Shown in pieces: positions 3,153-60,444 of a stretch of 64,000 nt of DNA. This stretch comes from Candidatus Melainabacteria bacterium. GTDB lineage: Bacteria; Cyanobacteriota; Vampirovibrionia; LMEP-6097. The stretch spans positions 186,001 to 250,000 of the forward strand of contig DUDT01000014.1 of NCBI GenBank assembly GCA_005110385.1. The letters run 5' to 3'. Under the pieces are notes generated by a model. It did no database searches, was not told the DNA's origin, and was given only the letters and a program-made list of their open reading frames with translations. Position 1 is the first letter of the stretch. Each line of letters starts with the position of its first letter. The position numbers and the translations under genes are program-made.

Positions 3153-5783
3153 ATGGTCTCCACAGCGCGCGCACCCACTGTAATAGACCTAATCGCAAGA
3201 GCAGCTTACTCTGATGAGCCACCAGTAGGAATAAAACAAAGCCCTCTCACTTCAGGAAATCCTCTTCCGGATTTTAATAGGTCTCCTTCTAGTCAAAGAC
3301 TGGAGTTACATCAAGTGGAGCAAGCACCGTCATTTGAGGGAACGATAAACTTAATTCGAGAAAAATATGATAGCTTAAAACAACTTATTCAAAGCCCTAT
3401 TTTTAATCAAAGCGAATTCGAACAAATCGAAAAGCAGCTCATTCAAAGCTACAAAACACTTACTAGAGAACACTTAGATAGGTTAAGAGAAGATATTGAT
3501 ATACCAAGGGCACGAGAGAGGCGCCAAGAGGCAAATAACAAGCCTATCCAGCAGTTTAAAAATCAAATCACCATATTAGAAAATATAAATAATTCTCTAA
3601 TTGATAATATTGAAAAACTAGAAAAGAATTTCAGTGATTTAAGCTTAACAGCAGAGGAAACAGAATTTTTAAGAAGAACCTCTCTAGGCAAAGTATTTAA
3701 GCTAGAACCCACTAGCACTGGACTATTTACCGAAATTATCGCTGAGCAAAAGCACCGAGTTTTAAAAAATTTAGCAAAGATATTCTCATCATCTATTTCT
3801 TCAGAAGATGAACGCATGACTAAAATCCTTCAAGAAAAGAGATTTAAAGGTCTCTATCATCAGATACTAGATATTTATGAAAACCATATACCGACCAAAG
3901 GAGAAATACCTAACCCTTTCGAACAAAGAAATTTTAATGATGGCTTAATTGAAAAAGAAATCTATCAATCGAATTATCACGACCTTGACCCTTCTGGAAA
4001 AGCTTCTCTCAATAGACAAATCGATACAAGCACAGATCCAGTAGAAAAGAATAAATTGAATTTAAAAAGAAAAGATTCATTCTACGCTGTAGGCAGGAGA
4101 AAAGCTTTAATTAAAAATCTTAATGCCCTTTATAAAAATGATTTTCGAGAAACAGTAAATATCATAAGATCCTATGTAGAAAACTCTTTTAAAAATGAAT
4201 CCAAGATAAATCATCGAGAATTGATGCCAGATGGTGCTATAGGTCCCCGTGACCTAGCCGTTCTTGGCTTTAGCAATGCTGCGCTCAGAGAAAAACATGT
4301 TCACGCACTGGGTCTTAGATTTACAATCGGTAGTATTAACGAAACACGTGTTTCCATAGCAGCTCAGTTTCTAAATCAACTTCTTGAAACTGGTGGCATA
4401 AAGAATTACTTAACAATAAAAAAGAATCAATACGAACAAATAGGACTAGAAATAGAGAAAGACCTTAACTTCAATACAAACTTTAGCATCGAAAGAATAA
4501 TACACTTTTCGCCACGGGGACCTTTTGATATAAGCGGCTCAGATATAGGCTTCTTAATTAAAGAAAAAAGAAAAGGTCTGCGAACTGGGTCTCAAGAAGA
4601 GAATTCCAAGCCATACAGCTATAAATTCATCAGAATACAAGTTAAAAGCTCAGAGCGAGCAGCAGCTAAGTCAATGGGTAGTAAATATCCAGATATACAC
4701 GCTATCTCAGGCACTCAACACAAATTAAATCCTAAAACAAGAATCCCTTTAGGGGACAGGGTTACCTCACTTTACACAAGTGGAGAAGAGCTAACTTACC
4801 CCAACGTAGAATCTGCGAAACTGACCAGGAGAGCTATTGACCCTGATCTCCCTTTAAAACTTCTCACTGGTATTAATAAAGATAGACAAAGAAATTTTTT
4901 AACCATAGAAGAAGAGCAATATCAAGAACTAGAGAAGCTTTTCAATGATGAGACTCTTTTCAAAAACCAAGGTAAAAATACAGTACCCGTAGATGATACA
5001 GCTGAAATTCAATTAATGAATGCCCTTGCAGCACAAGGCTTCTTATCATCTCTATGCCTAGCCTATCAAAAATACCCCTATACTCTTCAACGGAAATTAA
5101 TTAACGAACTACCCCATCATTTCGCACAAGCTTCTGCACTTAGCAATCAAATACCTATTGAATACTTCAGCTCAGAAGTAAATAAATTAGTAAAAAGTTT
5201 AGCTTCTAGGCTTAACTTGCCAAGCATTACAGTGTCACAGGCATTCAAAAGCGATTTGTTCAACAGCATGAATGAGCAAAAAATTGAGATGAGTTATCTA
5301 AAACCAATACTCTACAAAGCTCTCAGAGAATACCAAGCTAAAGCAAACTGGGCTGAAATAAATTTAGATGAAATCTTAAAACCTTACGCAAACGAAGCAA
5401 GGGAACAGAAAAAGATTCTTGGTCATAGGCTAGGGGGAGTTAAGAAACTACTTAAACTATATTTAAGCAAAATGCTAGAGACTTCAAATCCTCAATTAAC
5501 TCAAACTGATAGACAAAGTGTTTTAAAGATTTTAATAAATAACAAAATCGCCTTTAATCCAGCTTTCTTTCATAGAATCAGTAGTCCAGAAATTAAAACC
5601 AAGGATGATATTCTGCGCTGCCTTGATGAATTTCCTAAAAACTTCAAAACCAAATTTGAAACTGCACCCATAGACCTAAGTAAGGAAAATAAAACCAAAC
5701 AATTAAAATTAAAACTTCGCAATCATCATATTATCCCTTTCCAGCGCATTACTCAAGAATCTTTAAATCCAGCATCCGCCTAA
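3153..5783 (+). CDS. Large hypothetical protein with PD-(D/E)XK-like and terminal HHIIP motifs
   Basis: An 876-residue protein that I cannot assign to a named family. Residues about 60-170 are strongly helical (probable coiled coil). Around 430-500 there is an acidic helix (LEIEKD), then FDISGSDIGF (459-467) and a strand ending IQVKSS (495-500). The spacing D464...Q496-x-K498 matches the PD-(D/E)XK nuclease core with Gln in place of Glu; this is inference by eye. The last 22 residues begin LRNHHIIPF, the usual opening of HNH/colicin-type nuclease domains, but the protein stops soon after, so such a domain would be truncated. It starts 11 bases after typA and overlaps the convergent ligA 3' end by 35 bases. 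No signal peptide. Confidence 0.75.
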   Translation: MVSTARAPTVIDLIARAAYSDEPPVGIKQSPLTSGNPLPDFNRSPSSQRLELHQVEQAPSFEGTINLIREKYDSLKQLIQSPIFNQSEFEQIEKQLIQSYKTLTREHLDRLREDIDIPRARERRQEANNKPIQQFKNQITILENINNSLIDNIEKLEKNFSDLSLTAEETEFLRRTSLGKVFKLEPTSTGLFTEIIAEQKHRVLKNLAKIFSSSISSEDERMTKILQEKRFKGLYHQILDIYENHIPTKGEIPNPFEQRNFNDGLIEKEIYQSNYHDLDPSGKASLNRQIDTSTDPVEKNKLNLKRKDSFYAVGRRKALIKNLNALYKNDFRETVNIIRSYVENSFKNESKINHRELMPDGAIGPRDLAVLGFSNAALREKHVHALGLRFTIGSINETRVSIAAQFLNQLLETGGIKNYLTIKKNQYEQIGLEIEKDLNFNTNFSIERIIHFSPRGPFDISGSDIGFLIKEKRKGLRTGSQEENSKPYSYKFIRIQVKSSERAAAKSMGSKYPDIHAISGTQHKLNPKTRIPLGDRVTSLYTSGEELTYPNVESAKLTRRAIDPDLPLKLLTGINKDRQRNFLTIEEEQYQELEKLFNDETLFKNQGKNTVPVDDTAEIQLMNALAAQGFLSSLCLAYQKYPYTLQRKLINELPHHFAQASALSNQIPIEYFSSEVNKLVKSLASRLNLPSITVSQAFKSDLFNSMNEQKIEMSYLKPILYKALREYQAKANWAEINLDEILKPYANEAREQKKILGHRLGGVKKLLKLYLSKMLETSNPQLTQTDRQSVLKILINNKIAFNPAFFHRISSPEIKTKDDILRCLDEFPKNFKTKFETAPIDLSKENKTKQLKLKLRNHHIIPFQRITQESLNPASA

Positions 5784-7860
5784 ATCCCCCCTCATCTAAA
5801 ACCCTCACGCCAAGTGAATTAGCCTTCTCCAACTTAGAACCAGCTTCATCACCACACAATAAATAAGATGTGCTTTTAGAGACACTTGAACTAGTTTTAC
5901 CACCATTATCCTTAATTAGTTTCTCGAAATAGGATCTACTCTCAGACAGAGTTCCCGTGATAACGAAAGTCATCCCTGAAAATCTATCAGAGAGCTTACG
6001 CTGCGTTACTTCTGTAAAATTAAAACCAAGTTCATAATAGTCTTTTTTTATTTGGGCATAAATCTCAGACTGGAAAAACTGAATTAAAGAAGCTAGAATC
6101 TTCTCCCCAAGACCATCTAGCTTTAAAAGCTCTTGCCCATTATTTACTAAAACTTCATGTTCAAGCTCAGATAAATTAGGAATTAAAGAAGCTATTAATT
6201 GAGCTACATTTAAACCTACATGTTTAATACCTAAAGCGTGAAGGAATCGGTGAAAAGCCTTTCCTCGACTAGCTTGAATCGCTGCAAGTAAATTATTAAC
6301 GGACTTATCAGCCATTCTTTCTAAATCTATTAATTGCTCATATCTCAGCCTATAAAGGTCTAGCGGATTAGAAATTAATTTTACTTCTAACAGCTGCTCT
6401 ATAATAGAAGGCCCTAGACCAGAGATATCTAGAGCGTTTCTAGAAACCCAATGTTCAATACGCCTCTGTATCTGAGCAGCACAGCCCACTATATTAGGAC
6501 ATCTTAACGCGACATCCTCCTGTTCCAAGACACTGTCACAGATAGGGCATTTACTAGGCTTCTGTATTTGGCTGCGAATTTCATTTTCTAAAAAAGACCG
6601 CTGCACAACTCCATTTTCTGCGTTCACATCATCTCTAATTACAGAAACTATCTCTGGGATTATCTCACCAGCCTTACGTACAGAAACCTTATCTCCAAGC
6701 CCAACTCCGAGCCTAGCTATCTGATCAAAGTTATGCAAAGTTGCACGCTTCACAGTAGTACCTGCTAAAAGTACTGGCTCTAAATTAGCTACTGGAGTGA
6801 TTATGCCAGTACGGCCAACTTCATAATCCACTGAAATCACTTTAGTTATAGCCTCTTCAGCTGTAAACTTTAAAGCCATTGCCCAACGTGGGAACTTACT
6901 AGTCACCCCAAGTGTTTTCTGCAAGTGAGTTTCATTAATTTTAACGACAGCTCCATCTATCTCTAGATCTAAGCTGTCTTTCTTCTCTTGCCATTCATGG
7001 TATAAATTAATCACCTCTTCAATACTAGTACAGAGATGATTACCCCCTTTATTTACATGAAAGCCCCAATCCTCAAGCTGCTTTAATGCATGCCAGTGCG
7101 TGAACACCTTATCATCAGAGTCAGCAGTGGAATTCTCAGATACCTCAGCACCTGTATCCTTGGCTAAATGTAAACCATAACAAATAATATCTAAATTTCT
7201 CTCAGCTGTAATTTTAGGGTCAAGCTGCCTAAGTGCTCCAGAAGCCGTATTGCGAGGATTTGCGTAAAGATCTAATCCTTGATTAGCCCTAGCTTCATTT
7301 ACCTTTATAAATTCAGCTTTAGGTAGGTAAACTTCTCCACGAACAGTAAAGTCACCCAAACCTTGAACATCTTTAGGCAAAGACTTTATAGTAAAAATAT
7401 TAGGGGTAACATCTTCACCTACTCTTCCATCACCACGAGTAGCCGCCCTGTATAAGTTACCATTCTTATAATCTATCGTTATACTCAAACCATCTATCTT
7501 CAGCTCAAATACATAAGTCCTTACTGTTTCAGCCCCTATTATTCGATTAATTCTTTCTTCCCAAGCACGTATATCCTGCTCCCCAAAAGCATTAGCAAGG
7601 CTCATCATCGGAATTGCATGTGCAATTTTATTAAAAGATGTTTTATATACTCCCGTTCCTACAGTCTGCGTAATACTGTCAGCTTCCATTAAATCTGGAT
7701 AAGCAGCCTCTAAAGCTATCAGCTCTTGTAAATGAGCATCATAAACAGCATCAGCAACTTCGCTATTATTTTCTATATAATACTGATGGCTCCAATGTTT
7801 GAGCTTGATTTGAAGATCTTGGTATTTAGCCTCAGCTTCCTTGTATGTTTCTTTGAGCAC
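5749..7860 (-). CDS. ligA: NAD-dependent DNA ligase LigA
   Basis: Seals nicks in duplex DNA using NAD+ during replication and repair. At 703 aa it is slightly longer than the usual 660-680. The order is an Ia domain, an adenylation domain with the nucleophile in ELKIDG (K121), an OB fold, a four-Cys zinc finger (CPIC near residue 437, then C..C near 454-460), helix-hairpin-helix repeats and a C-terminal BRCT domain (GMTFVITGTLSESR). The start is GTG at 7860. Residues about 407-421 (DVNAENGVVQRS) form an insertion between the OB fold and zinc finger that matches the dispersed repeat described below. It is last in the thyX-antiporter-atpB-permease-ligA run, 9 bases after the permease. Confidence 0.96.
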   Translation of the reverse strand: MLKETYKEAEAKYQDLQIKLKHWSHQYYIENNSEVADAVYDAHLQELIALEAAYPDLMEADSITQTVGTGVYKTSFNKIAHAIPMMSLANAFGEQDIRAWEERINRIIGAETVRTYVFELKIDGLSITIDYKNGNLYRAATRGDGRVGEDVTPNIFTIKSLPKDVQGLGDFTVRGEVYLPKAEFIKVNEARANQGLDLYANPRNTASGALRQLDPKITAERNLDIICYGLHLAKDTGAEVSENSTADSDDKVFTHWHALKQLEDWGFHVNKGGNHLCTSIEEVINLYHEWQEKKDSLDLEIDGAVVKINETHLQKTLGVTSKFPRWAMALKFTAEEAITKVISVDYEVGRTGIITPVANLEPVLLAGTTVKRATLHNFDQIARLGVGLGDKVSVRKAGEIIPEIVSVIRDDVNAENGVVQRSFLENEIRSQIQKPSKCPICDSVLEQEDVALRCPNIVGCAAQIQRRIEHWVSRNALDISGLGPSIIEQLLEVKLISNPLDLYRLRYEQLIDLERMADKSVNNLLAAIQASRGKAFHRFLHALGIKHVGLNVAQLIASLIPNLSELEHEVLVNNGQELLKLDGLGEKILASLIQFFQSEIYAQIKKDYYELGFNFTEVTQRKLSDRFSGMTFVITGTLSESRSYFEKLIKDNGGKTSSSVSKSTSYLLCGDEAGSKLEKANSLGVRVLDEGGFRRMLDLKILE
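6596..6640 (-). repeat. In-frame half-copy of palindromic repeat inside ligA
   Basis: On the minus strand the 3' part reads gcagaaaatggagttgtgc followed by agcggtc, matching the 36348-36392 copy (gcagaaattggagttgtgc, agcggtctc) with few changes. It encodes NAENGVVQRS in the LigA frame, between conserved blocks of the enzyme. Confidence 0.75.
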
Positions 7861-7869
7861 AAGAAAATA

Positions 7870-8937
7870 TTATAGCCATAAGTCAGTTAAGACCGAAAGC
7901 AAAGCAATAACCACAACAGAAATAACTGTCAAGTAAATAGCCACCTTTAAGCCAAATGCCTGCTTATAAACAAAAACCGTAGTTAAATTCACCGATGGAC
8001 TAGCCGTCATAAAAGCAAGCACAGCTCCTATAGGCACTCCCATATTTAAAAATTCTTGGCTCATAGGAATATCGGCTCCTGCACAAAAATAAAAAGGAAA
8101 TGCTATAAGTGAGAAAATCCAAGGTGCCAAATATTTATTAGTTAGCACAGCTTGGAAAGCAGTCAGGGATTCATAATTAAAATGAAGCAAGCTTGCAAGA
8201 GCTACAGACAAAAGTACCCACGGTAAAAACTGTTTTATCGCAGCGATAAGATCCTCTCTTATATGTGCCAAAACTTCATTAGTCCCTAATTTATGCTGAT
8301 GATCTTCATCATTATGCTCATGCACAGCAGCGTGATTTTCATTATCATGATGATGATCTTCGCCACTATGCTCATGCACAGCAGCGTGATTATCATTTCC
8401 ATGATGATGATCAGCTTCGCAACAAGATTCCTTAGATGATCCACCTGGAGCTAATTTCAACGCAATAAAATCTGCAATTTTCGCTTCTCCAGAGAAGATA
8501 AAAACATAGGTAACTAAAACAGCAAAAGCTATCGCCATTAATAAACGATAAGCCGTAATCTCTAAACCAAAAATTCCATAATTAAGGATTAAAGCTGGGA
8601 CACTACAAGCATTTCCAGCAAGAAGAAAAGCTAAAATTATTTTCCAGTCAAGCTGCTTACGATACAGTCCTAGAGCAAGTGGAATCATCCCACAGGTACA
8701 AATAGGAATTAATGCACCAAGAAAAGCTGAAACTAATATCATCAAAAAAAGACGTAATTGATAGCTTAAGAACTCTGAAAATTTCCAGGAAGGATTAACT
8801 CTAGCTAAAGCCACTAATCCTATTTTTTCAAAATAACCATCTGGTAAATAAACTTCTATTAAAGATGAGCAAATAACCGCAATGAAAAATACAGGTAGTA
8901 TTTCAAATAGTATATGGCTAAAATGCTCTATAAACAC
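7870..8937 (-). CDS. Permease of the ArsP_1/DUF318 type with a His-rich loop (probable metal efflux)
   Basis: A 355-residue membrane protein with about eight hydrophobic segments. The segment PICTCGMIP, near residue 80, is the CxCG signature of the DUF318 permease family, which includes arsenic- and Cu/Zn-efflux members. Between the two membrane halves lies a cytoplasmic loop (about residues 175-215) with a Cys and two near-identical His-rich units (HHH..N.NHAAVHEH), a likely metal sensor or buffer. Family knowledge and the loop suggest Cu/Zn-type export; the substrate is inferred. It begins 3 bases after atpB and is followed 9 bases later by ligA. Confidence 0.75.
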   Translation of the reverse strand: MFIEHFSHILFEILPVFFIAVICSSLIEVYLPDGYFEKIGLVALARVNPSWKFSEFLSYQLRLFLMILVSAFLGALIPICTCGMIPLALGLYRKQLDWKIILAFLLAGNACSVPALILNYGIFGLEITAYRLLMAIAFAVLVTYVFIFSGEAKIADFIALKLAPGGSSKESCCEADHHHGNDNHAAVHEHSGEDHHHDNENHAAVHEHNDEDHQHKLGTNEVLAHIREDLIAAIKQFLPWVLLSVALASLLHFNYESLTAFQAVLTNKYLAPWIFSLIAFPFYFCAGADIPMSQEFLNMGVPIGAVLAFMTASPSVNLTTVFVYKQAFGLKVAIYLTVISVVVIALLSVLTDLWL

Positions 8938-24081: not shown

Positions 24082-24146
24082 AGTCCCTAATTTAATTTAA
24101 AAAAATGGCGGAGACGAAGATCTGTAAAAGCGCCAGCTTTTACAAT
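24082..24146 (+). repeat. 65-bp direct repeat, copy 1, carrying the tRNA-Asp 3' end
   Basis: Identical over 65 bases to 24307-24371. It contains TGGCGGAGACGAAG, the (complement) 3' end of the nearby tRNA-Asp including CCA, and a perfect hairpin TGTAAAAGC-GCCA-GCTTTTACA. It is followed by a diverged T-arm-like piece (GGTTCAAGTCCC) in inverted orientation. Confidence 0.9.
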
Positions 24147-24191
24147 ATAAAAAATCAACCCCAGGTTCAAGTCCCTTCGTCGACGCTAATT

Positions 24192-24312
24192 GGGACTGCT
24201 CGCAATCTTCAATTTCTGCGTTTTCGTCGTCCTCATGATCCTCATGTACCTTTAGTACACTGCGGTCATTCGTCCTCCTCAGCCTTGAACTTGTGCGTTT
24301 GTGAGCAGTCCC
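24192..24312 (-). repeat. Full-length 121-bp palindromic element, copy B
   Basis: Bounded by inverted repeats gggactgctcgcaa (24192-24205) and ttgtgagcagtccc (24299-24312), 13 of 14 paired. Read on the minus strand, its right half (49 bases) carries the core gaaaacgcagaaattg shared with all other copies. An internal stem TGTAC/GTACA lies near the middle. taatt flanks both sides, a possible 5-bp target duplication. It sits between the two 65-bp tRNA-derived repeats. Confidence 0.85.
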
Positions 24313-24371
24313 TAATTTAATTTAAAAAAATGGCGGAGACGAAGATCTGTAAAAGCGCCAGCTTTTACAAT
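24307..24371 (+). repeat. 65-bp direct repeat, copy 2, carrying the tRNA-Asp 3' end
   Basis: An exact duplicate of 24082-24146, followed at 24389-24400 by GGTTCAAGTCCC and at 24405-24410 by GTCGAC. A third, shorter match (20 bases) is the real tRNA 3' end at 24427-24446. Confidence 0.9.
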
Positions 24372-24431
24372 GAAAAAGGCAACCCTAGGGTTCAAGTCCC
24401 GTAGTCGACATTATTTTAATTTATTAAAAAA

Positions 24432-24508
24432 TGGCGGAGACGAAGGGACTTGAACCCTCGACCCCCTGCGTGACAGACAGGTGCTCTAACCAACTGAGCT
24501 ACGCCTCC
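24432..24508 (-). tRNA. tRNA-Asp (GTC)
   Basis: 77 nt including the encoded CCA (plus-strand tgg at 24432-24434). The acceptor stem GGAGGCG pairs with CGTCTCC (one G-T), the D arm has GCTC/GAGC, the anticodon stem CCTGT/GCAGG has loop CTGTCAC with anticodon GTC, and the T arm contains GGTTCAAGTCC. The discriminator base is G, as expected for Asp. Pieces of its 3' end are repeated downstream at 24105-24118 and 24331-24344. Confidence 0.95.
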
Positions 24509-35979: not shown

Positions 35980-36351
35980 ATGTTCAAGTACGATACAGAG
36001 AATCTTCCACGCATTACCTTTAAAGGAAAGAGGCTTACTGAAAAGCAAATCGCAGTTCTAGAGTTTTTAGCACAGGGGCAGACGAATACAGAAATAGCCG
36101 AAAATCTTTTCCTCTCTGTAAGAACCGTAGAATCGCACATCTCTAGAATTAGAGGAATTATCAGTGAGCATATGCCACAGTCACAGAGAATAAGTGATAG
36201 GCAACTCGTTTTATTCGCTAAAGATCTAATTGATGGCTTTAAAATTTTCGACATACTGAAAAGCGGCATGAATGAAGGCTTTGAGCTATCAGAATTTAAA
36301 ACTTATCAAAAAACAGTAAGCCTGAATAATGATAGATATTATATTCAATGA
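35980..36351 (+). CDS. Small LuxR-type DNA-binding regulator
   Basis: 123 aa. Residues about 18-65 are a LuxR/GerE helix-turn-helix (LTEKQIAVLEFLAQGQTNTEIAENLFLSVRTVESHI, described in parts: LTEKQ, NTEIAENL, VRTVESHI). There is no receiver or ligand domain, so it is a stand-alone regulator. A clear AGGAG lies 10 bases before the ATG. The gene ends inside a copy of the palindromic repeat: one extra A in CAATGAG creates the TGA. Without it the frame would run through the element (HEAGENAEIGVVQRS) to a TAG at 36404-36406. Confidence 0.85.
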   Translation: MFKYDTENLPRITFKGKRLTEKQIAVLEFLAQGQTNTEIAENLFLSVRTVESHISRIRGIISEHMPQSQRISDRQLVLFAKDLIDGFKIFDILKSGMNEGFELSEFKTYQKTVSLNNDRYYIQ

Positions 36352-36392
36352 GGCGGGCGAAAACGCAGAAATTGGAGTTGTGCAGCGGTCTC
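36348..36392 (+). repeat. Half-copy of palindromic repeat at the 3' end of the LuxR-type gene
   Basis: Reads atgaggcgggcgaaaacgca then gaaattggagttgtgcagcg and gtctc. Its core is identical to that of 36470-36510, but the outer end (gtgcagcggtctc) matches the ligA and wecB copies. It encodes ENAEIGVVQRS in a frame one base off the LuxR frame. Confidence 0.85.
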
Positions 36393-36396
36393 TTTT

Positions 36397-36518
36397 GGGC
36401 GTGTAGCCAAACGAACAAGTTCAAGGTCTGAGGAGGATGAATGACCGCAATGTATCAAGCATACATGAGGATCATGAGGCGGGCGAAAACGCAGAAATTG
36501 GAGTTTCGCTACACGCCC
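36397..36518 (+). repeat. Full-length 122-bp palindromic element, copy A
   Basis: Ends are inverted repeats gggcgtgtagccaaac (36397-36412) and gtttcgctacacgccc (36503-36518), 15 of 16 paired. Internal stem TGTAT/ATACA. The interior is about 80% identical to copy B at 24192-24312, whose ends have a different sequence. It lies 4 bases after the half-copy at 36348 and stops 3 bases from the argS stop codon. Confidence 0.9.
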
Positions 36519-36521
36519 CTG

Positions 36522-38417
36522 TTACATTTTCTCTGGTGCAGAAATGGCAAGTATACTAAGAGCATTTTTTATAACTATCTTAGAAGCTGCCACCAGAGAT
36601 AGCCTAGCCTTCATAACCTCTTCGTTTTCACCTATAATACGATTTTCATTATAGAACTGATGAAATAAGCTAGCTAAATTCTTTAAGTAGACTGAGATTT
36701 TATAAGGTGCCCTGATATCAGCAGCATCAATAACAAGCTTAGGTAATTCAATCAATTCTAAAACTAAGCTTCTGATAGTTTTCAACTGCTCTTCACTATG
36801 ATATTCATCAGAAAAGAGTTTCTTGAAATTTGCAGAAAATGTTTTAAACTCTTCATTTAATAAACGTTCCAGCTCATCTACTTCAAAAATAGCAGCTTCT
36901 TCCGTATTATCAACTATATTGATACGAGGGCTTACTAAATTACGAAATATACTTGCCGAGCGGGCATGTGCATACTGTATGTAGTAAACTGGATTATCTT
37001 TATCATGTTTTTGCGCTAAAGCTAAATCAAAAACCATGCGATTATTGGCTTGGCTATCCACGAGAAAGAATCTCAGAGCATCTTTACCGACTTCAGCTAA
37101 AAGCTCATCAACGTTAACTATAGTGCCTTTGCGCTTAGACATTTTTTTCTCAACGCCATCTTCTTTAACGGAAACCAATTGAATAAAAATCAACTCTAAC
37201 TGATCTGAATTATAGCCAATAGCGTGAATCGCCCCCCTGATACCAAGCTCTTGTCCGTGATGATCACTGCCCCAAACATTAATTAACTTATCAAAGCCTC
37301 TGTCAAATTTATCTTTATGATAAGCGATATCACCAGCTAAATAAGTGAACATGCCTTGAGATTTCCTAAGGACTCTATCTCGCTCATCACCAAAGGATTT
37401 CGCTCTAAACCATAGAGCCGAGTCTTCTTCATACACAGCAGAGACCTCATGGGCGTGCAGCGGAACTCCAATTTCTGCGTTTTCGCCCGCCTCATGATCC
37501 TCCGTCACATCTTCTTGCTTTACTTTTGCTGCTTTAAGTGTTTCACAGATTAACTCAATTTTATTTTTATCATTAATTTTTACTTGATGTAGATTCTCGT
37601 TCTCCGAGTACCACGTATCGAAATGAACTTCTATGTCAGCTAAAACTTTCTTCTGTAAATCAAGAAAAAGACTTTTCGCTAATTTACCAGCTATTTCTTT
37701 TGCTTGATCACCAGCAAGGGAAGCCGCATCCAAATAGCCTTCTAGCTTAGATTTATAAATCTCCGGCTTTAAAACATCTAGCATAGAATCCAGTGGATAA
37801 GCATCCACTGGATAATTTTCCTTAGTGATGTGACCCTCTTGAATTTGAATTGCAGCTTGAGCAGAGAGTGAAAGCTTTTCTATCTGCACACCAGCATCAT
37901 TAATATAAAATTCACTAGATACATCGTAACCAGCCCAGTCAAGTAATCTTGCAAGAGAATTACCCAGAACTGCTTGCCTGCCATGACCTAAATGTAGATT
38001 ACCAGTAGGGTTCGCTGAAACATACTCTATAAGAAAGCGATGCGGCTCCATATTAGCCCGAGCTTCTTTAGATAAACGACCATAATTATCTTTCTCTTGA
38101 TGAATCTCTATCAGAGCAGATTCCAGAAAATCCCAATTCAAACGAATATTAATAAATCCAGGACCCGCGATAGATATATCACCAATGGCAACTACATCCA
38201 AATGCTTAACTATACTTTGAGCTATCTTTACTGGTGGTAGTTTCGCCTCACGAGACAATTTGAGGGCTATACTTACGGCGATATCGCCATGATCAGGGTT
38301 TTTACATCTCTCCACATCTATATAATCAGAAAAACTTTTCAGCTCACCTAAGTCAGATGCCGCAATAGCTTTATTTATAGCTATTTGGAATAAATTACGA
38401 ATCTTGCTGCTTAACAT
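36522..38417 (-). CDS. argS: Arginyl-tRNA synthetase
   Basis: Class I synthetase charging tRNA-Arg. 631 aa, longer than the usual 550-590. HIGH-like HLGH occurs in NPTGNLHLGHGRQAV, the KMSKR-like motif in KKMSKRKGT, and the C-terminus ends LAISAPEKM. Part of the extra length is an insertion at residues 307-322 (DHEAGENAEIGVPLHA) encoded by a copy of the palindromic repeat, placed in the loop before the conserved DSALWFRAKSFGD block. A full repeat copy abuts its 3' end. The 5' end overlaps the upstream 38395-39585 gene by 23 bases. Confidence 0.95.
   Translation of the reverse strand: MLSSKIRNLFQIAINKAIAASDLGELKSFSDYIDVERCKNPDHGDIAVSIALKLSREAKLPPVKIAQSIVKHLDVVAIGDISIAGPGFINIRLNWDFLESALIEIHQEKDNYGRLSKEARANMEPHRFLIEYVSANPTGNLHLGHGRQAVLGNSLARLLDWAGYDVSSEFYINDAGVQIEKLSLSAQAAIQIQEGHITKENYPVDAYPLDSMLDVLKPEIYKSKLEGYLDAASLAGDQAKEIAGKLAKSLFLDLQKKVLADIEVHFDTWYSENENLHQVKINDKNKIELICETLKAAKVKQEDVTEDHEAGENAEIGVPLHAHEVSAVYEEDSALWFRAKSFGDERDRVLRKSQGMFTYLAGDIAYHKDKFDRGFDKLINVWGSDHHGQELGIRGAIHAIGYNSDQLELIFIQLVSVKEDGVEKKMSKRKGTIVNVDELLAEVGKDALRFFLVDSQANNRMVFDLALAQKHDKDNPVYYIQYAHARSASIFRNLVSPRINIVDNTEEAAIFEVDELERLLNEEFKTFSANFKKLFSDEYHSEEQLKTIRSLVLELIELPKLVIDAADIRAPYKISVYLKNLASLFHQFYNENRIIGENEEVMKARLSLVAASKIVIKNALSILAISAPEKM
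37451..37499 (-). repeat. In-frame half-copy of palindromic repeat inside argS
   Basis: The minus strand reads gatcatgaggcgggcgaaaa, cgcagaaattggagttccgc, tgcacgccc: 49 bases differing from 36470-36518 at two positions. It starts exactly on an ArgS codon and encodes DHEAGENAEIGVPLHA. Confidence 0.92.
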
Positions 38418-42308: not shown

Positions 42309-43520
42309 TTAGAGTTTTTTTATTAAGGCAAAGATATCTCTGCTGCTTTCAGGTCTTGCAAATCGATACAAATTTTTCTTCATCGCCGATATTTTCTCAG
42401 GGTTCTTAGCTAAGTCTAAAAGCAAATCAGCAATCTCCTTTTGCGGAGAGTATCGCGGAATTCCATTTTCTGCATTTTCACCACCAGAAAAATTATCTTG
42501 CCGAATCATAAAACCGCAATCCGCCTTAACTAAAGCCTCTGCATTTTTAGTCTGATGATCATGAGCAGCCCAAGGTAAAGGAATTAGTATCGGTACTATA
42601 AGCGACACTGCCATTTCAGCACAAGTCATAGCACCAGACCTACAAATAGCGACGTCAATAGTTTTAGAAATATTCGCCATTTCATGGGTATAACTTAAAA
42701 CCTTATAATTAGAATATTTCTGAGGATCACCATTTAAATATTTATTTACGTGTTCATTAAAAAGCTTAGAGCCGGTAATGTGCGTAATAGATATTTCTTT
42801 GCCTTCAATCGCAAGTCTTTTATTAAAATCCTCAAAATCTTTAAGTAAAATGCCTATACTATCATTAACGAACTGGGAACCCTGACTACCACCAGTTACT
42901 AAGACCCTCAAATGATTTTCATCACGGGGTTCACGCTTGGCAGCAGCCCCATAAGCGGCTTCCCTATAAATATTAATAAAGTCCTGCGAAACTGGATTAC
43001 CCGTGTAACGATATTTATCATTAAAACTTATATTTATCGGAAAGCCTAAGCTCACACAACTCGCAAATATTCTAAATAATTTGTTTACTAAACCAAAATT
43101 ACTATCAAGATTATGAATTAAGAATTTAGTTTTTGTTGTTACGCAGGCAAGAAATACTGGCGCTGCCACATAGCCACCAGTACCCATAACTACGTCGATT
43201 TTATTCTCTCTTAGATAATTCACTGAGCATTTATAAGCTTTAAAAAAAATGCTAAACCATTCTAGATTTTCTTTCAAAGAATTATTTCGAGAAGGAAGCT
43301 TAGGGGAATTAATCGGGAGAAACTTAATATATTCTTTACGCACACACAATTCCTGCTCAAGTTTTCCTTCACCACCGATATAATATAAAGCATTTTTTTC
43401 AGCTCCGAGGGACTGCTCGCAATCTTCAAATAACTCAGCAACAGCAAGGCAAGGATAAATATGTCCCCCAGTGCCTCCTCCCGTAAATGCAACTCGCACA
43501 GCAATTTCCTTTATCGACAT
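42309..43520 (-). CDS. murG: UDP-GlcNAc--undecaprenyl-pyrophosphoryl-MurNAc-pentapeptide transferase MurG
   Basis: Adds GlcNAc to lipid I, giving lipid II at the inner membrane. 403 aa against the usual 355-370. The diagnostic loops are FTGGGTGGHIYP, VMGTGGYV, VTGGSQGSQFVND and the C-terminal CRSGAMTCAEM...PWAAHDHQTKNAE. The additional length includes two pieces that match the palindromic repeat: EDCEQSL (residues 31-37) and GGENAENGIPR (about 346-356). ATG start at 43520. It converges with the gene ending at 42285. Confidence 0.95.
   Translation of the reverse strand: MSIKEIAVRVAFTGGGTGGHIYPCLAVAELFEDCEQSLGAEKNALYYIGGEGKLEQELCVRKEYIKFLPINSPKLPSRNNSLKENLEWFSIFFKAYKCSVNYLRENKIDVVMGTGGYVAAPVFLACVTTKTKFLIHNLDSNFGLVNKLFRIFASCVSLGFPINISFNDKYRYTGNPVSQDFINIYREAAYGAAAKREPRDENHLRVLVTGGSQGSQFVNDSIGILLKDFEDFNKRLAIEGKEISITHITGSKLFNEHVNKYLNGDPQKYSNYKVLSYTHEMANISKTIDVAICRSGAMTCAEMAVSLIVPILIPLPWAAHDHQTKNAEALVKADCGFMIRQDNFSGGENAENGIPRYSPQKEIADLLLDLAKNPEKISAMKKNLYRFARPESSRDIFALIKKL
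42455..42485 (-). repeat. Diverged in-frame half-copy of palindromic repeat inside murG
   Basis: The minus strand reads ggtggtgaaaatgcagaaaa then tggaattccgc, aligned with the argS copy core (gcgggcgaaaacgcagaaat, tggagttccgc). Same reading frame, peptide GGENAENGIP. Confidence 0.65.
43409..43429 (-). repeat. Outer arm of palindromic repeat (copy-B type) inside murG
   Basis: 21 bases (gggactgctcgcaatcttca plus a on the plus strand) are identical to the outer end of the full copy at 24192-24212. It encodes EDCEQSL near the MurG N-terminus, in the loop after the first Rossmann helix. Confidence 0.8.
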
Positions 43521-51140: not shown

Positions 51141-51418
51141 AAACTATCATTGATTAGCCTTTTAATATTATCCCTGATCATGGCACAGCGACGATTCAGG
51201 GCGCAAAGAAGATCTCCACCAGAAGCTTTAAGTTCGCCCTGACCTACTATACAACCCCGTTTACCCTTAAAAGCAAAATGTTTATACTTTAAAAATAACT
51301 CCTTCAGTATATTTGGATAACAAGTAGCCTGCTCTGAAGAAAATAAAATATTTTTATCTCTGTATTTCCTAATATCCATAAGCATTTCTTTGATTTTTTT
51401 CTGATTTTCTAATTTCAT
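51137..51418 (-). CDS. Small hypothetical protein coupled to wecB
   Basis: 93 aa, basic, with three Cys (EQATCYPN, RGCIVGQGE, LNRRCAMIRD). Its ATG overlaps the wecB stop (ATGA-type, 4 bases), so translation is coupled. No membrane segment or known domain. Possibly a regulatory or accessory protein of the envelope sugar pathway; this rests only on position. Confidence 0.6.
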   Translation of the reverse strand: MKLENQKKIKEMLMDIRKYRDKNILFSSEQATCYPNILKELFLKYKHFAFKGKRGCIVGQGELKASGGDLLCALNRRCAMIRDNIKRLINDSF

Positions 51419-52800
51419 TTAATTGGGGCAGTTTTAATGATTTTAATTATCTTCTTTGCCGCATCCCCATTCCCATAGAGGGACTTTTTACCCTTTTCAA
51501 TTTCTGTTTGACTATTATTAAGTAAAGATTTAGTCATTAACTGAGAGATAAGACTCTTAATCGCAAATTTAATACTTTTGGAATCAGGACTTAGTCTCTC
51601 ACTTAGACCCTGTTCTAAATATTCCTCTCTCTCTGCCTCCTCTCGCATAACAAGAGTATATTTATTTAGATAAGCCGCCTCTTCTTGGACGCCGCCACTA
51701 TCAGTAATTATAAAGAATGCATTCTGCATTAACTGTATAAACTCCCAGTAAGTCACCGATTCCAGCAAACAAAGACCTGAAATATTCATAGATAATAGCT
51801 TTTCAGATAATTTTAAAAAATTTTCTTTTGCATGCGGGTTATTATGCAGGCATATAGTAAATTCTATAGTTTCTTCGCAGTGTTTGGGAAACTTAGTTTC
51901 TGGTTTTTTAAGATTCTCCCTACTTTGTTCTTGAAGAATCTGAAAGATACTTTCACAGAGTGTTGCTTGAAATCCACTGCTGATGTTTTCTCGTCTATGA
52001 CTAGTAATTAGAATATACTTTTTCGCATCTAGCCTAGGTTCATTTCTGGAGCTCTTTTCAACAATAGTAGAATTACCAAGCTTTAAATTCTTATTATCAA
52101 TTATGCTGTGAGCTTTAAAAAGAGCATCTATGCCAGTGTTTCCAGTGTTAAATATATTGTTAGCAATAGCAAATTCCTTTAAATCTAGCGAAAGTTTAAG
52201 ATTAGGATGATCAATATTCAATTGTGATATAGCTATATTCTTTAAAATCATTTTCTCCTGAATAAGCCTTCTGTAAACCTTCTCACTGGGGCAGAAATGA
52301 TAGTCAGCTATCTGACTAATAACACGCCTAGAGAGTTCTTCGGGAAATGGGCTTTTTGGGTTAACCGTTCTTAGACCAGCTTCTACATGAGCTACCCTAA
52401 TATGATTATAAAAGGCTGCTAAAGCAGCCTGCACAGCACTTAAAGTATCTCCCTGCACTATAACTAAATCTGGTTTTTCTCTGCGAAAGAGCAGATCTGC
52501 CTCAGTAAGGAGCTTTGCTGCAAGCTCCGCTAAGCTAAGTCCTTGATTTACTAGGCTAAATTCATAATCTGGCTGTATATCCCAAAATTCCAAAAGATCA
52601 CTGAGAATGAGTTTATTGTGTTGATTGGTGTGTACCCACTTAATCTCAGGGATTGCTTTAGGAGACCGCTGCACCACTCCATTTCCTGCATTTCCCTCGC
52701 CTTCATTTTCTACGAGTTTACTTAAGCTTTGGAATTCCAAATATACGGGTGCTAGTTTTATATATTCAGGTCTAGTACCGACTATAATAAAAATTTTCAT
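51415..52800 (-). CDS. wecB: UDP-N-acetylglucosamine 2-epimerase (non-hydrolysing)
   Basis: Makes UDP-ManNAc from UDP-GlcNAc for surface polysaccharides. 461 aa versus the usual 360-380. Core motifs are VGTRPEYIKLAPV, QGDTLSA, VEAGLRT, SHRRENI and DSGGVQEEA. Extra length comes from an insertion at residues about 25-50, which includes EGNAGNGVVQRS encoded by a palindromic-repeat copy, and from loops near 220-290. The AGGAG ribosome site lies 5 bases before the ATG. Divergent from the ABC ATPase with overlapping -10 boxes. Confidence 0.9.
   Translation of the reverse strand: MKIFIIVGTRPEYIKLAPVYLEFQSLSKLVENEGEGNAGNGVVQRSPKAIPEIKWVHTNQHNKLILSDLLEFWDIQPDYEFSLVNQGLSLAELAAKLLTEADLLFRREKPDLVIVQGDTLSAVQAALAAFYNHIRVAHVEAGLRTVNPKSPFPEELSRRVISQIADYHFCPSEKVYRRLIQEKMILKNIAISQLNIDHPNLKLSLDLKEFAIANNIFNTGNTGIDALFKAHSIIDNKNLKLGNSTIVEKSSRNEPRLDAKKYILITSHRRENISSGFQATLCESIFQILQEQSRENLKKPETKFPKHCEETIEFTICLHNNPHAKENFLKLSEKLLSMNISGLCLLESVTYWEFIQLMQNAFFIITDSGGVQEEAAYLNKYTLVMREEAEREEYLEQGLSERLSPDSKSIKFAIKSLISQLMTKSLLNNSQTEIEKGKKSLYGNGDAAKKIIKIIKTAPIK
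52662..52709 (-). repeat. In-frame half-copy of palindromic repeat inside wecB
   Basis: The minus strand reads gaaggcgagggaaatgcagg then aaatggagtggtgcagcggt and ctc, matching the 36348-36392 copy including its outer end gtgcagcggtctc. It encodes EGEGNAGNGVVQRS. Confidence 0.8.
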
Positions 52801-52831: not shown

Positions 52832-53974
52832 GTGGTTCAAGTTTCTTTAAATAAAATATCTAAAAAATATGATGAGAATTACATCATCAAAGATATCAGC
52901 CTAGAATCTCAAGATAAAGAATTTATAGTTTTAGTAGGACCTAGTGGTAGCGGTAAGAGTACGATTATTAGAATAATCGCAGGCTTAGAAGGTGATTTTG
53001 AAGGTGAATTAAAATTCGCTGGTGAAACGGTAAAGGACTTAGCAGCGAAAGATCGTAACCTCAGCATGGTTTTCCAGAATTATGCGCTTTATCCCCATAA
53101 AACAGTTTTTGAGAATATCGCCTTCCCTTTAGTAATTAAATCTGAGCCTAAAAATCTAATTAAAGAAAAAGTACATAAAGTAGCCGGGAAGCTTGATTTG
53201 ATGAAATATCTAGAACGCAAGCCTGGGCAGCTTTCTGGCGGGCAGAAGCAGAGGGTCGCTGTGGCTAGAGCTTTAATTAAAGAACCGCAGCTTTTTTTAA
53301 TGGATGAACCCTTAAGTAATCTTGATGCGAAGTTAAGAACCTCTACTAGACAGGAAATACGCAAGCTCTATCAGGAATTAAACAGTACTTTTATTTATGT
53401 AACTCATGATCAAATCGAGGCTATGAGCCTTGGCGATAGAATCGCCATATTACATGAAGGTAAGATACAGCAGTTTGATACTCCATCCAAGATATATCAT
53501 GAGCCCGCAAATACTTTTGTTGCGAGCTTTATCGGCTCCCCCCCGACTAATTTATTTGAACCAAACTCAACTCTATTTCAAGCTTTAAAAGAGGAACTGA
53601 TCCCTAAACTCAATCGCGAAGATTTAATCATCGGCATTCGCCCAGAATATTTTTATTTAACCGCAGAAAATTTAGATCATGAGGACAACGAAAACGCAGA
53701 AATTGGAGTTCCGCTACACACCCTTGAGGCAGAATTAGTTAATATTGAGAACCTAGGTGAAGAGATTCTAGTTTATGCAAAGCTAGATGAAAATTCAGGC
53801 AAGCTAAATGGTAGCGAATACTTGATAGCTAAAATTGATAATGCAGAGTATATTAAATTACTTAATGGCAAATGCAGCGCCTTAAGTCCTGAAAACCCAG
53901 TAAAATTACAATTATTCTTTGATCCTAAAATGATTTACCTTTTTGATAAGCGATCTAGTATGCGAATCAGTTAG
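52832..53974 (+). CDS. ABC transporter ATP-binding protein, MalK/UgpC type
   Basis: 380 aa. Walker A GPSGSGKST (about residue 35), the Q-loop MVFQNYALYPH, signature LSGGQKQRVAVARAL, Walker B LFLMDEPLSNLDAKLR and a C-terminal TOBE/OB regulatory domain. Such ATPases power carbohydrate or glycerol-phosphate importers and can serve several permeases. No permease or binding protein is nearby. Residues 282-297 (DHEDNENAEIGVPLHT), in the TOBE region, come from a palindromic-repeat copy. GTG start. The next gene follows after 12 bases. Confidence 0.92.
   Translation: MVQVSLNKISKKYDENYIIKDISLESQDKEFIVLVGPSGSGKSTIIRIIAGLEGDFEGELKFAGETVKDLAAKDRNLSMVFQNYALYPHKTVFENIAFPLVIKSEPKNLIKEKVHKVAGKLDLMKYLERKPGQLSGGQKQRVAVARALIKEPQLFLMDEPLSNLDAKLRTSTRQEIRKLYQELNSTFIYVTHDQIEAMSLGDRIAILHEGKIQQFDTPSKIYHEPANTFVASFIGSPPTNLFEPNSTLFQALKEELIPKLNREDLIIGIRPEYFYLTAENLDHEDNENAEIGVPLHTLEAELVNIENLGEEILVYAKLDENSGKLNGSEYLIAKIDNAEYIKLLNGKCSALSPENPVKLQLFFDPKMIYLFDKRSSMRIS
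53675..53723 (+). repeat. In-frame half-copy of palindromic repeat inside the ABC ATPase gene
   Basis: gatcatgaggacaacgaaaa, cgcagaaattggagttccgc, tacacaccc: 49 bases, about 90% identical to the argS copy. It starts exactly on a codon and encodes DHEDNENAEIGVPLHT. Confidence 0.92.
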
Positions 53975-58793: not shown

Positions 58794-58841
58794 GGGCGTG
58801 TAGAGAAACTCCAATTTCTGCGTTTTCATCGTCCTAATGAC
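58794..58841 (-). repeat. Half-copy of palindromic repeat forming the 3' end of the O-antigen-ligase gene
   Basis: The minus strand reads cgtcattaggacgatgaaaa, cgcagaaattggagtttctc, tacacgccc. The outer end is the copy-A type. In the host reading frame CAT-GAG of other copies has become CAT-TAG, which is the stop codon of the upstream gene. Confidence 0.85.
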
Positions 58842-60444
58842 GCTTCTGTATAATCTCCACATAAGGCAATGGTAAGTATAATTTCTCCCCACTACGATAA
58901 AAAGCCTTAATTCTCGAATCACCCGATTTCCCGCCTATAACTTTGTACGATGGTAGTGAGGGATCGCTTAAAAAAGTCTCTAGATGAGGGTCTATCTTTA
59001 AAGCTTTTATATAATGTGCTTTGGCTTTCTTAGAGTCTTGGTTCTGATAAATTAAAGAACTAATTAAAAACCAGTAAGCATCATTACCAGTGTATTTTAA
59101 GGCAAAATCTACAGATTCCCTTGCTTCTTTTAAATGCATATTACTTAATTGTGCGGCAGCCAACGCACCTCGAATATAAGGCACTGCTGGAGCTAACTCT
59201 ACAGCTTTTAGTAAATCCTGTTCACTATTTAGTAAATCTGATTCTATGGTTTTTACACCACGCATAAGAAAATATAGAGGATGCTTAGTATCTATATTTA
59301 TTGCTTTATCTAAATCGCCTTGGTCGTAATAATAATGCCCCACAGCACTTGGTACTAAAATTATTAAACTTAAAAATAAAAAACTTATCTGGGCTGGTTT
59401 TCGTAAATAAAAAGGTAATTTTTTAAAAATACTTTCAAAAAACATATTATCAGATTTAGGTAAATAACACAGGGGCATTATGATTAGCCCCATAAGCAGA
59501 AATTGATTAAATGACTGTAAGTTGCTATCAGCAGCACCAATCAAAGCTAGGCAGGGTAAGGCTTGCGGTGCTTTAACTGCTACTAGATAAAATAGAGCTG
59601 TTACTAATATTAAACCTACTAAGCCAAGCTCAAAAGCATAGTGGATAAAAAGATTGTGCCCGTGATTTACTTGCTCATTAGCATGAGCGCCTAAGACTTT
59701 TTCCAAATGACGATATACAGGAAAATCTAAAACAAAAGTTCCGAAACCATGACCGAATAAAGGTTTTTTCAAAAAACCATGGAAAGCTCCCTCCCAGATT
59801 AATATACGTGGTTGAATAGATTTTTCAATAAAGTGAATTAACTTTTCTTTAAATACGAAACTTAACCCAACTAAAATAAAAGCTAAAATATAAATCAACC
59901 TAGAACGCAAATATACTCTAAAGCTCAATACCTGAGCTAAAAAAGTTATTTTTTTATTTAAAAAGAAAAGCATGATAAGAAAACTTAAGTAAATAAAAGT
60001 ACCTAAGCGCACGCCCAAAAATTTTCTTTTCAACTTAGGTACCAGACTATCATCATCTCTAAGGTAAATAACGAGGAATACAGGTACCCACATCAGTAAG
60101 CTTCCAAGCTCTGAAAGTGAGAATTTGAAAAAATCACAGATACTTAAAGCGATAAAAACTACTAATAATATTCTGAAACGCTTTCTCGTATCTAAATCTA
60201 ACCAAAATTTAGATGCACCAAAAATTAAACAAGCAGAGGAGATTAATAAATACTCTAAGCTCAATCTAGAATTAGCTGCAAATAAGTAAGTAATTAATAA
60301 TAAAAACCAGATTAGATAATATTGAGAAATTTTAGAAACTTGAATAAGTGTAAAAATACAAGTTAAGGCATGCGTGAACCAGATACTCATCGCAATTGGT
60401 GAACCGATAACAAAAATCAATAAAAAGATTCCTAAACTCAGCAT
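58834..60444 (-). CDS. O-antigen ligase/polymerase-like membrane protein with TPR tail
   Basis: 536 aa. About 10-12 membrane helices cover residues 1-380. The Wzy_C/WaaL motif is visible in the periplasmic loop: WEGAFHGFLKKPLFGHGFG followed by VNHGHNLFIHYAFELG (the conserved HN and G). The last 150 residues are TPR-like helices (YWFLISSLIYQNQDSKKAKAHYIKALKIDP). Such proteins join or polymerise surface glycans, which fits wecB and murG nearby. It starts 3 bases after the 60448-61116 gene. The stop codon lies inside a repeat copy. Confidence 0.82.
   Translation of the reverse strand: MLSLGIFLLIFVIGSPIAMSIWFTHALTCIFTLIQVSKISQYYLIWFLLLITYLFAANSRLSLEYLLISSACLIFGASKFWLDLDTRKRFRILLVVFIALSICDFFKFSLSELGSLLMWVPVFLVIYLRDDDSLVPKLKRKFLGVRLGTFIYLSFLIMLFFLNKKITFLAQVLSFRVYLRSRLIYILAFILVGLSFVFKEKLIHFIEKSIQPRILIWEGAFHGFLKKPLFGHGFGTFVLDFPVYRHLEKVLGAHANEQVNHGHNLFIHYAFELGLVGLILVTALFYLVAVKAPQALPCLALIGAADSNLQSFNQFLLMGLIIMPLCYLPKSDNMFFESIFKKLPFYLRKPAQISFLFLSLIILVPSAVGHYYYDQGDLDKAINIDTKHPLYFLMRGVKTIESDLLNSEQDLLKAVELAPAVPYIRGALAAAQLSNMHLKEARESVDFALKYTGNDAYWFLISSLIYQNQDSKKAKAHYIKALKIDPHLETFLSDPSLPSYKVIGGKSGDSRIKAFYRSGEKLYLPLPYVEIIQKRH

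Follow-up and report, generated by a model that had tools for sequence, protein, structure and literature searches.

Introduction

Rickettsia palindromic elements (RPE) are not known to have an identified mover, and the spread of protein-coding palindromes such as these has been a standing question ever since they were first described, in 2000; RPE are also found in intergenic positions. They are short palindromes, belonging to several families, that form in-frame insertions in unrelated protein genes (PMC10969869). The family described here shares with RPE a palindrome of ~100–150 bp that lies on one strand and in one frame within unrelated protein genes. It differs in its host, which is Caenarcaniphilales-like (Cyanobacteriota), so that a Rickettsia origin, which the resemblance to RPE had suggested, was rejected. 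It also differs in its documented 5-bp target site duplications (TSDs) and right-half stubs, in arms that vary yet pair with each other, and in covariation of the entire rod-shaped fold between genera. We know of no sequence relation between RPE and this family. The element is a MITE-like palindrome that works as RPE do, with no kinship implied.

Other described systems offer partial parallels. Like MITEs of the IS5/IS1182 type, the element is non-autonomous, with terminal inverted repeats and a TSD of fixed length, and the genome contains a relic IS whose ends resemble one of the arm types; yet here the ends are largely free provided that they pair, the internal fold is conserved, and a matching IS is missing for most arm types and from other genera. 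REP/REPIN sequences with their RAYT (Y1) are likewise palindromic, hairpin-forming and present in many copies, as singlets and doublets, but the present element is much longer and has a TSD, and its own genus is without a Y1 transposase. Integron attC sites are also imperfect palindromes of variable sequence, conserved fold and variable terminal loop; the present element, in contrast, is scattered, with TSDs and without cassette arrays. The attC sites carry RYYYAAC/GTTRRRY boxes, and none was seen by inspection at the outer positions of the element.

Here, we report that two copies, A and B, are members of a family of mobile palindromes, 121 bases long and not catalogued before, which occurs in dozens of copies per genome in non-photosynthetic relatives of cyanobacteria and often lies in frame within essential genes.

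Results

In the window, that is, the whole 64-kb stretch of DNA that was analysed, a profile search recovers two full copies plus several right-end pieces:

36397–36518, + strand: full copy A, arm type T1 (GGGCGTGTAGCC), 122 nt
36392–36396, + strand: CTTTT, target duplication (5 bp) on the left of copy A (right: CTGTT), read from the sequence
36519–36523, + strand: CTGTT, target duplication (5 bp) on the right of copy A, read from the sequence and a species comparison
36348–36391, + strand: half copy immediately upstream of copy A, truncated at 5' so that the right end alone is left, arm type T4 (..GTGCAGCGGTCTC)
24192–24312, - strand: full copy B, arm type T2 (GGGACTGCTC), 121 nt
24187–24191, + strand: TAATT, one of the two target duplications bordering copy B
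24313–24317, + strand: TAATT, the second target duplication bordering copy B
37452–37502, - strand: truncated half copy (..CCGCTGCACGCCC), in frame in the arginine--tRNA ligase gene argS (36522–38417, - strand), missing from the G001 orthologue
53675–53726, + strand: truncated half copy, in frame in an ABC-transporter ATP-binding protein gene (52832–53974, + strand)
58794–58851, - strand: truncated half copy at an ORF boundary
6594–6624, - strand: short right-end remnant (arm T4 plus ~15 nt of core) in ligA (5749–7860, - strand)
42446–42492, - strand: degenerate right-end remnant in murG (42309–43520, - strand)
43409–43424, - strand: isolated right arm (T2) in murG
52662–52695, - strand: short right-end remnant (arm T4) in ORF 51415–52800

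The arms of copy A, in + orientation (GGGCGTGTAGCCAAAC / GTTTCGCTACACGCCC), pair at 15/16 positions, and those of copy B, in the opposite, - orientation (GGGACTGCTCACAAAC / GATTGCGAGCAGTCCC), at 14/16, or 13/14 as first counted. The initial annotation, which had noticed that the ends differ between copies while each pairs with its own partner, was correct on this point, as it was on the internal stems, TGTAT/ATACA in A and TGTAC/GTACA in B. The half copies with other arm types to which it drew attention do exist, at 36348–36391 and 37452–37502, but they are 5'-truncated remnants that keep the right end only, and so have no partner arm and no fold of their own; as a separate folding type they were rejected, being truncations. 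Copy B is flanked by 110-bp direct repeats (24082–24191 and 24307–24416; 86%) with tRNA-like 3' fragments, and a tRNA gene (24435–24508) adjoins these repeats. Elsewhere in the window, a tandem 54-bp repeat (8293–8400) lies within ORF 7870–8937.

Copies A and B fold better than 200/200 of their dinucleotide shuffles (z -5.3 and -4.4), and a chance origin of their pairing is excluded. The + strand forms one long rod. Its outer part comprises a 16-bp stem (model positions 1–16/106–121) followed by 20–22/101–103 and 24–26/97–99 around a G.A mismatch; a core follows in which single Watson-Crick pairs (29/93, 32/90, 35/87, 38/84, and 41/81) stand between tandem GA/GA mismatches, the latter located between 32/90 and 44/78; above it lie 44–47/75–78, 48–49/72–73 and an apical hairpin, with a stem at 53–58/64–69 and a hypervariable 5-nt loop. 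In an alignment of 48 copies from two genera (A3, with six copies from the second genus), compensatory changes occur in 26 of the 39 pairs, and 95.8% of cells are paired, against 82.7% in shuffled alignments and ~28–42% when the partner is slid; none of 500 shuffles reaches any of the measures. A second alignment (A4), of 63 distinct sequences mostly from genomes outside model building, has 37/39 pairs covarying and 93.8% of cells paired versus 63.1% in shuffles, values in which the structure is favoured, since A4 was fitted to the covariance model and a few of its members were also used to build it. Pairs of the core covary too, namely 41/81 (CG, GC, AU, UA), 45/77, 46/76, 48/73 and 20/103. 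Within four arm subfamilies, compensatory double changes number 30 in the arms, where 1.6 would be expected if the two sides changed independently, 11 in the apical stem (0.17 expected) and three in the core (0.06 expected); the copies share descent, and the counts are thus not independent, with 30 distinct double events in 31 loci remaining. Preservation of the fold over the sequence, as initially proposed, is therefore upheld; covariation, whose absence over more copies had been named as a possible refutation, is found, and recombination of only two arm families fails as an explanation, given at least seven arm types within one genus and unrelated types in other genera, all self-paired.

The finer features of the rod vary in a structured manner. 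At 23/100 the mismatch is G.A in most copies and A.G in several, and T4 copies shift it by one position (CAGTTTC / GAAAATG); the wobble G53.U69 is conserved, and the tandem-GA zone is a continuous ordinary helix in several genera (genomes G003, G007, and G008). Over 84 distinct loci, most pairs of the 16-bp arms are >85% Watson-Crick with 2–4 pair types each, positions 11 and 12 pairing more weakly than the others. Among full copies of the genus (G000, G001, and G002), divergence within one arm type amounts to 3% of sites in the core and 46–58% in the apical loop (model positions 59–63), and arm variation occurs mostly in matched pairs. Identical apical loops are found with different arm types. 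A by-eye comparison gave no match between the apical loop and the target duplication, and no Rfam family matches the element. Of all that is proposed for the element, its fold has the strongest support.

Lacking a transposase gene, short and high in copy number, the element has the non-autonomy of a MITE, and its paired terminal arms are a MITE's inverted repeats. A sample of the own genome (827,517 bp, 43% of the genome) contains 35 full copies, 52 truncated right halves and 10 left-type hits, a density perhaps slightly high, as the sample consists of whole 20-kb stretches of contigs known to carry copies; both congeners (G001 and G002) are likewise rich in copies. In species genomes, the exact core pattern matches almost only Cyanobacteria bacterium REEB446 and Candidatus Caenarcaniphilales bacterium RE-15aug16-7, records that correspond by sequence identity to G001 and G002. 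A covariance model built from A3 and searched against 289 genomes of the class matches 13, namely every one of the nine genomes of the own family (f1, five genera) together with four genomes of a second one (f8, two genera), with no match in the remaining 276; nor did a search of phage and plasmid records yield any. Element size is 121 nt in the own genus and ~105–150 nt in other genera. The distant sequences retain the rod plus the internal loops CAAGG / AACGCAG and ACCGSAGU / AUGAGGAU, and the outer stem is mostly 11–15 bp longer in the second family.

Insertion leaves a 5-bp duplication, which is exact in 20 of 95 flanked full copies versus 1.3 expected under shuffled pairing; for flanks of five bases, 50–60 of the 95 match per position, and no other length stands out. 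In a separate genus (G004), perfect 5-bp repeats border 7/12 copies (TAAAA, TACTA, TTTAA, TAAAG, TTAAA, ATTGA, TTTTT). Many sites differ between species as half versus half plus full, by exactly 126 bp (121 + 5). At 36344–36523, the half copy of G001 carries a GGGACTGCTC-like arm and precedes a full copy of the GAGACC type; in G000 and G002, the half copy bears the GAGACC arm, and the full copy after it is of the GGGCGTG type, with the duplication CTTTT/CTGTT. From this comparison, we infer that a half-plus-full unit collapsed into a half bearing the newcomer's arm and that a fresh insertion followed at its right end; the imperfect duplication of copy A would be explained by such insertion at the right end of an older half copy. 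Right halves can also form when a full copy loses its left part to deletion; for example, full copies of the own genome at L196:13039 and L171:5095 are halves in G001. Recently active subfamilies are T1 here and the GAGACC type in G004.

Several variants accompany the standard copies. Apparent left halves were discarded as a class, since most of them represent a long version in which ~80 additional nt take the place of the apical loop (L187:16415-16614, L175:13377 onwards, L231, L084). The ~80-nt module is variable yet a self-paired hairpin (GCGAGACAAGTCTCATATGC and others), and short and long versions are present at the same orthologous site. Full copies also form tandem arrays with a 126-bp unit and identical 5–10 nt linkers (the L194:16613 region, in reverse, the L066:5562 region, and the start of L180). 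In half-plus-full units of the same type, linkers often fail to match the right flank, a pattern suggestive of recombination with a 126-bp unit or circle; an origin from a tandem dimer or minicircle fits the 126-bp differences and the flank-mismatched linkers, and unequal recombination does so equally. The arms of G004 pair, in addition, at ~221 bp (a longer version) and at 43 bp (a mini-palindrome), at C116:20525-20745, C192:7816-8036 and C205:12925-12967.

Copies located in large ORFs share strand and reading frame in 35 of 36 cases, the host genes in the window being argS, ligA, murG and that of the ABC ATPase; the right half contributes the peptide ..DDENAEIGV... Genes survive insertion because element and duplication together make 126 nt (42 codons) with one sense frame open. 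In full copies, frame +1 is open in 74/81 and the antisense frame in 53/81, so that the lack of antisense use is not due to stops alone.

Discussion

Our findings favour, with a probability of roughly 0.6, the view that these palindromes form a MITE-like, non-autonomous family of mobile elements, protein-coding and probably handled as a folded single strand in transit. As the fold is kept by matched double mutations despite completely changed sequence, the folded strand itself may matter for spread; that it is also the moving form is a further step that we infer from the maintained fold, and movement may involve an RNA intermediate. In the model that we propose, the mobilisation machinery would handle the element as RNA or as a ssDNA hairpin, reading the conserved core and internal loops and demanding paired ends, with end sequence largely free. 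DNA template switching between the arms could supply part of the matched double changes, and inserted copies would degrade, in most cases by losing the left half, new copies inserting or recombining beside the right-half stubs. We read the constrained core and pairing, next to free loop and arm sequence, as the mark of long-lived propagating lineages, with decay following insertion. Whether these properties define a new class of bacterial mobile element, a folded single strand recognised by shape, with freely drifting paired ends and a 5-bp duplication on integration, can be answered only tentatively, and we hold it to be a possibility short of even odds.

A more conventional view, in which the copies are ordinary MITEs of one or more DDE IS, the arms being TIRs that track IS variants and the fold a by-product, seems to us rather unlikely. 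It would accommodate the 5-bp TSDs, and a candidate source exists: a relic IS1182/IS5-like element (L188:13263-14418), with fragments at G001 contig ends, has a broken transposase (G000:C12:103411-104320) that is the only DDE_Tnp_1 match in the genome, and the ends of the relic and the fragments (GGCACTGTTGC / GAGACTGTTGCC / GGACTGTTGCT) match T3/T6 arms over 11 nt. Yet GGCACTGTTGC and GRGACTGTTGC match only T3-like arms, of the own genus; the family of the relic transposase's N-terminal domain is absent from G003–G008, and the ends of a related IS, with 53 copies in G015, differ from the element arms. A search for autonomous elements through arm pairs 0.3–5 kb apart gave none convincing and no IS partner for T1, T2 or T4 arms, nor was an IS with G004 arms found. 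Across the 827 kb of the own genome, no IS of at least 350 bp is repeated, the sole repeat being a local tandem; a near-identical tandem repeat of ~220 bp lies at L188:19079-19900 (593 nt at 98% to itself when shifted). TIR matching also leaves unexplained why compensatory pairs occur well inside the core and the apex, why the G53.U69 wobble is conserved, why 23/100 swaps and shifts, and why a helix replaces tandem GA. The preferred reading faces a difficulty of its own in that a DDE transposase cutting double-stranded ends would require a fixed terminal sequence, beyond mere pairing, and in that no consistent transposase was found.

Matched arms could also be purely mutational, produced by polymerase template switching at hairpins (quasi-palindrome correction) with no selection on the fold. 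Template switching homogenises inverted-repeat arms and can generate compensatory changes (PMC8794818, PMC8604942), and some observations fit: half and full copies at one locus share rare arm variants, and at L085 a GT became AC together with its partner, G002 keeping an unmatched intermediate. As a full account we judge it improbable, for it can neither maintain a specific rod with the same internal loops over two families nor hold the core at 97% against varying arms and loop. Its other signature would be loop inversions, and visual inspection of the apical loops showed none. It would, in addition, correct orthologous copies in place, where stem changes are mostly one-sided (e.g. L012/L079, L038/L223/L246, L033/L066, L002/L049) among full-copy pairs that are few and come from incomplete genomes. 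In-place matched changes, which tell against the preferred reading, are found at two orthologous loci, L013/L085 and L025/L243, and gene conversion or replacement could explain them. Stems thus mostly decay uncompensated after insertion, so that selection on the fold acts mainly during propagation.

The same decay bears on the other functional reading of the initial annotation, a resident structured RNA, be it an sRNA or an mRNA element, with selection on its fold in place, to which we accord slightly less weight still. The strong covariation, the strict sense orientation within genes and the predominance of G.U over A.C where only one side of an arm pair has changed (34 versus 18, p 0.036) are what such an RNA would show. 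In-place orthologous copies, however, mostly lose their pairing by one-sided changes; intergenic full copies in co-directional gaps are seven sense and seven antisense, convergent gaps being favoured; and most copies are truncated and unable to fold, with no Rfam counterpart. Of the two readings first put forward, that of a hairpin transposition substrate thus fits better, given the 5-bp target duplications, the uncompensated in-place changes and the lack of intergenic sense bias. A SINE-like retroposon, its RNA copied by reverse transcription, would account for the 52 right-end stubs, which start at scattered points within model positions 20–87 in the own genome and contrast with few left-end stubs, and for an RNA-like fold conserved on one strand, but it is very improbable, as orthologues show stubs formed by deletion from full copies and RVT_1 is absent from eight of the nine f1 genomes (G000–G005, G007, and G008; assemblies incomplete). 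Y1 transposase (PF01797) is absent from the own genus (G000–G002) and, together with the missing reverse transcriptase, this leaves no known machinery of an RNA or ssDNA route in evidence, a point against the preferred reading.

Overall, the family makes the spread of protein-coding palindromes testable, since it combines clear target duplications, recently active subfamilies and a fold with helices that can be broken and repaired. It is, at the same time, a natural case for telling selection on a fold from mutational template switching, and in a bacterial order about which little is known it supplies essential enzymes with in-frame peptide insertions.
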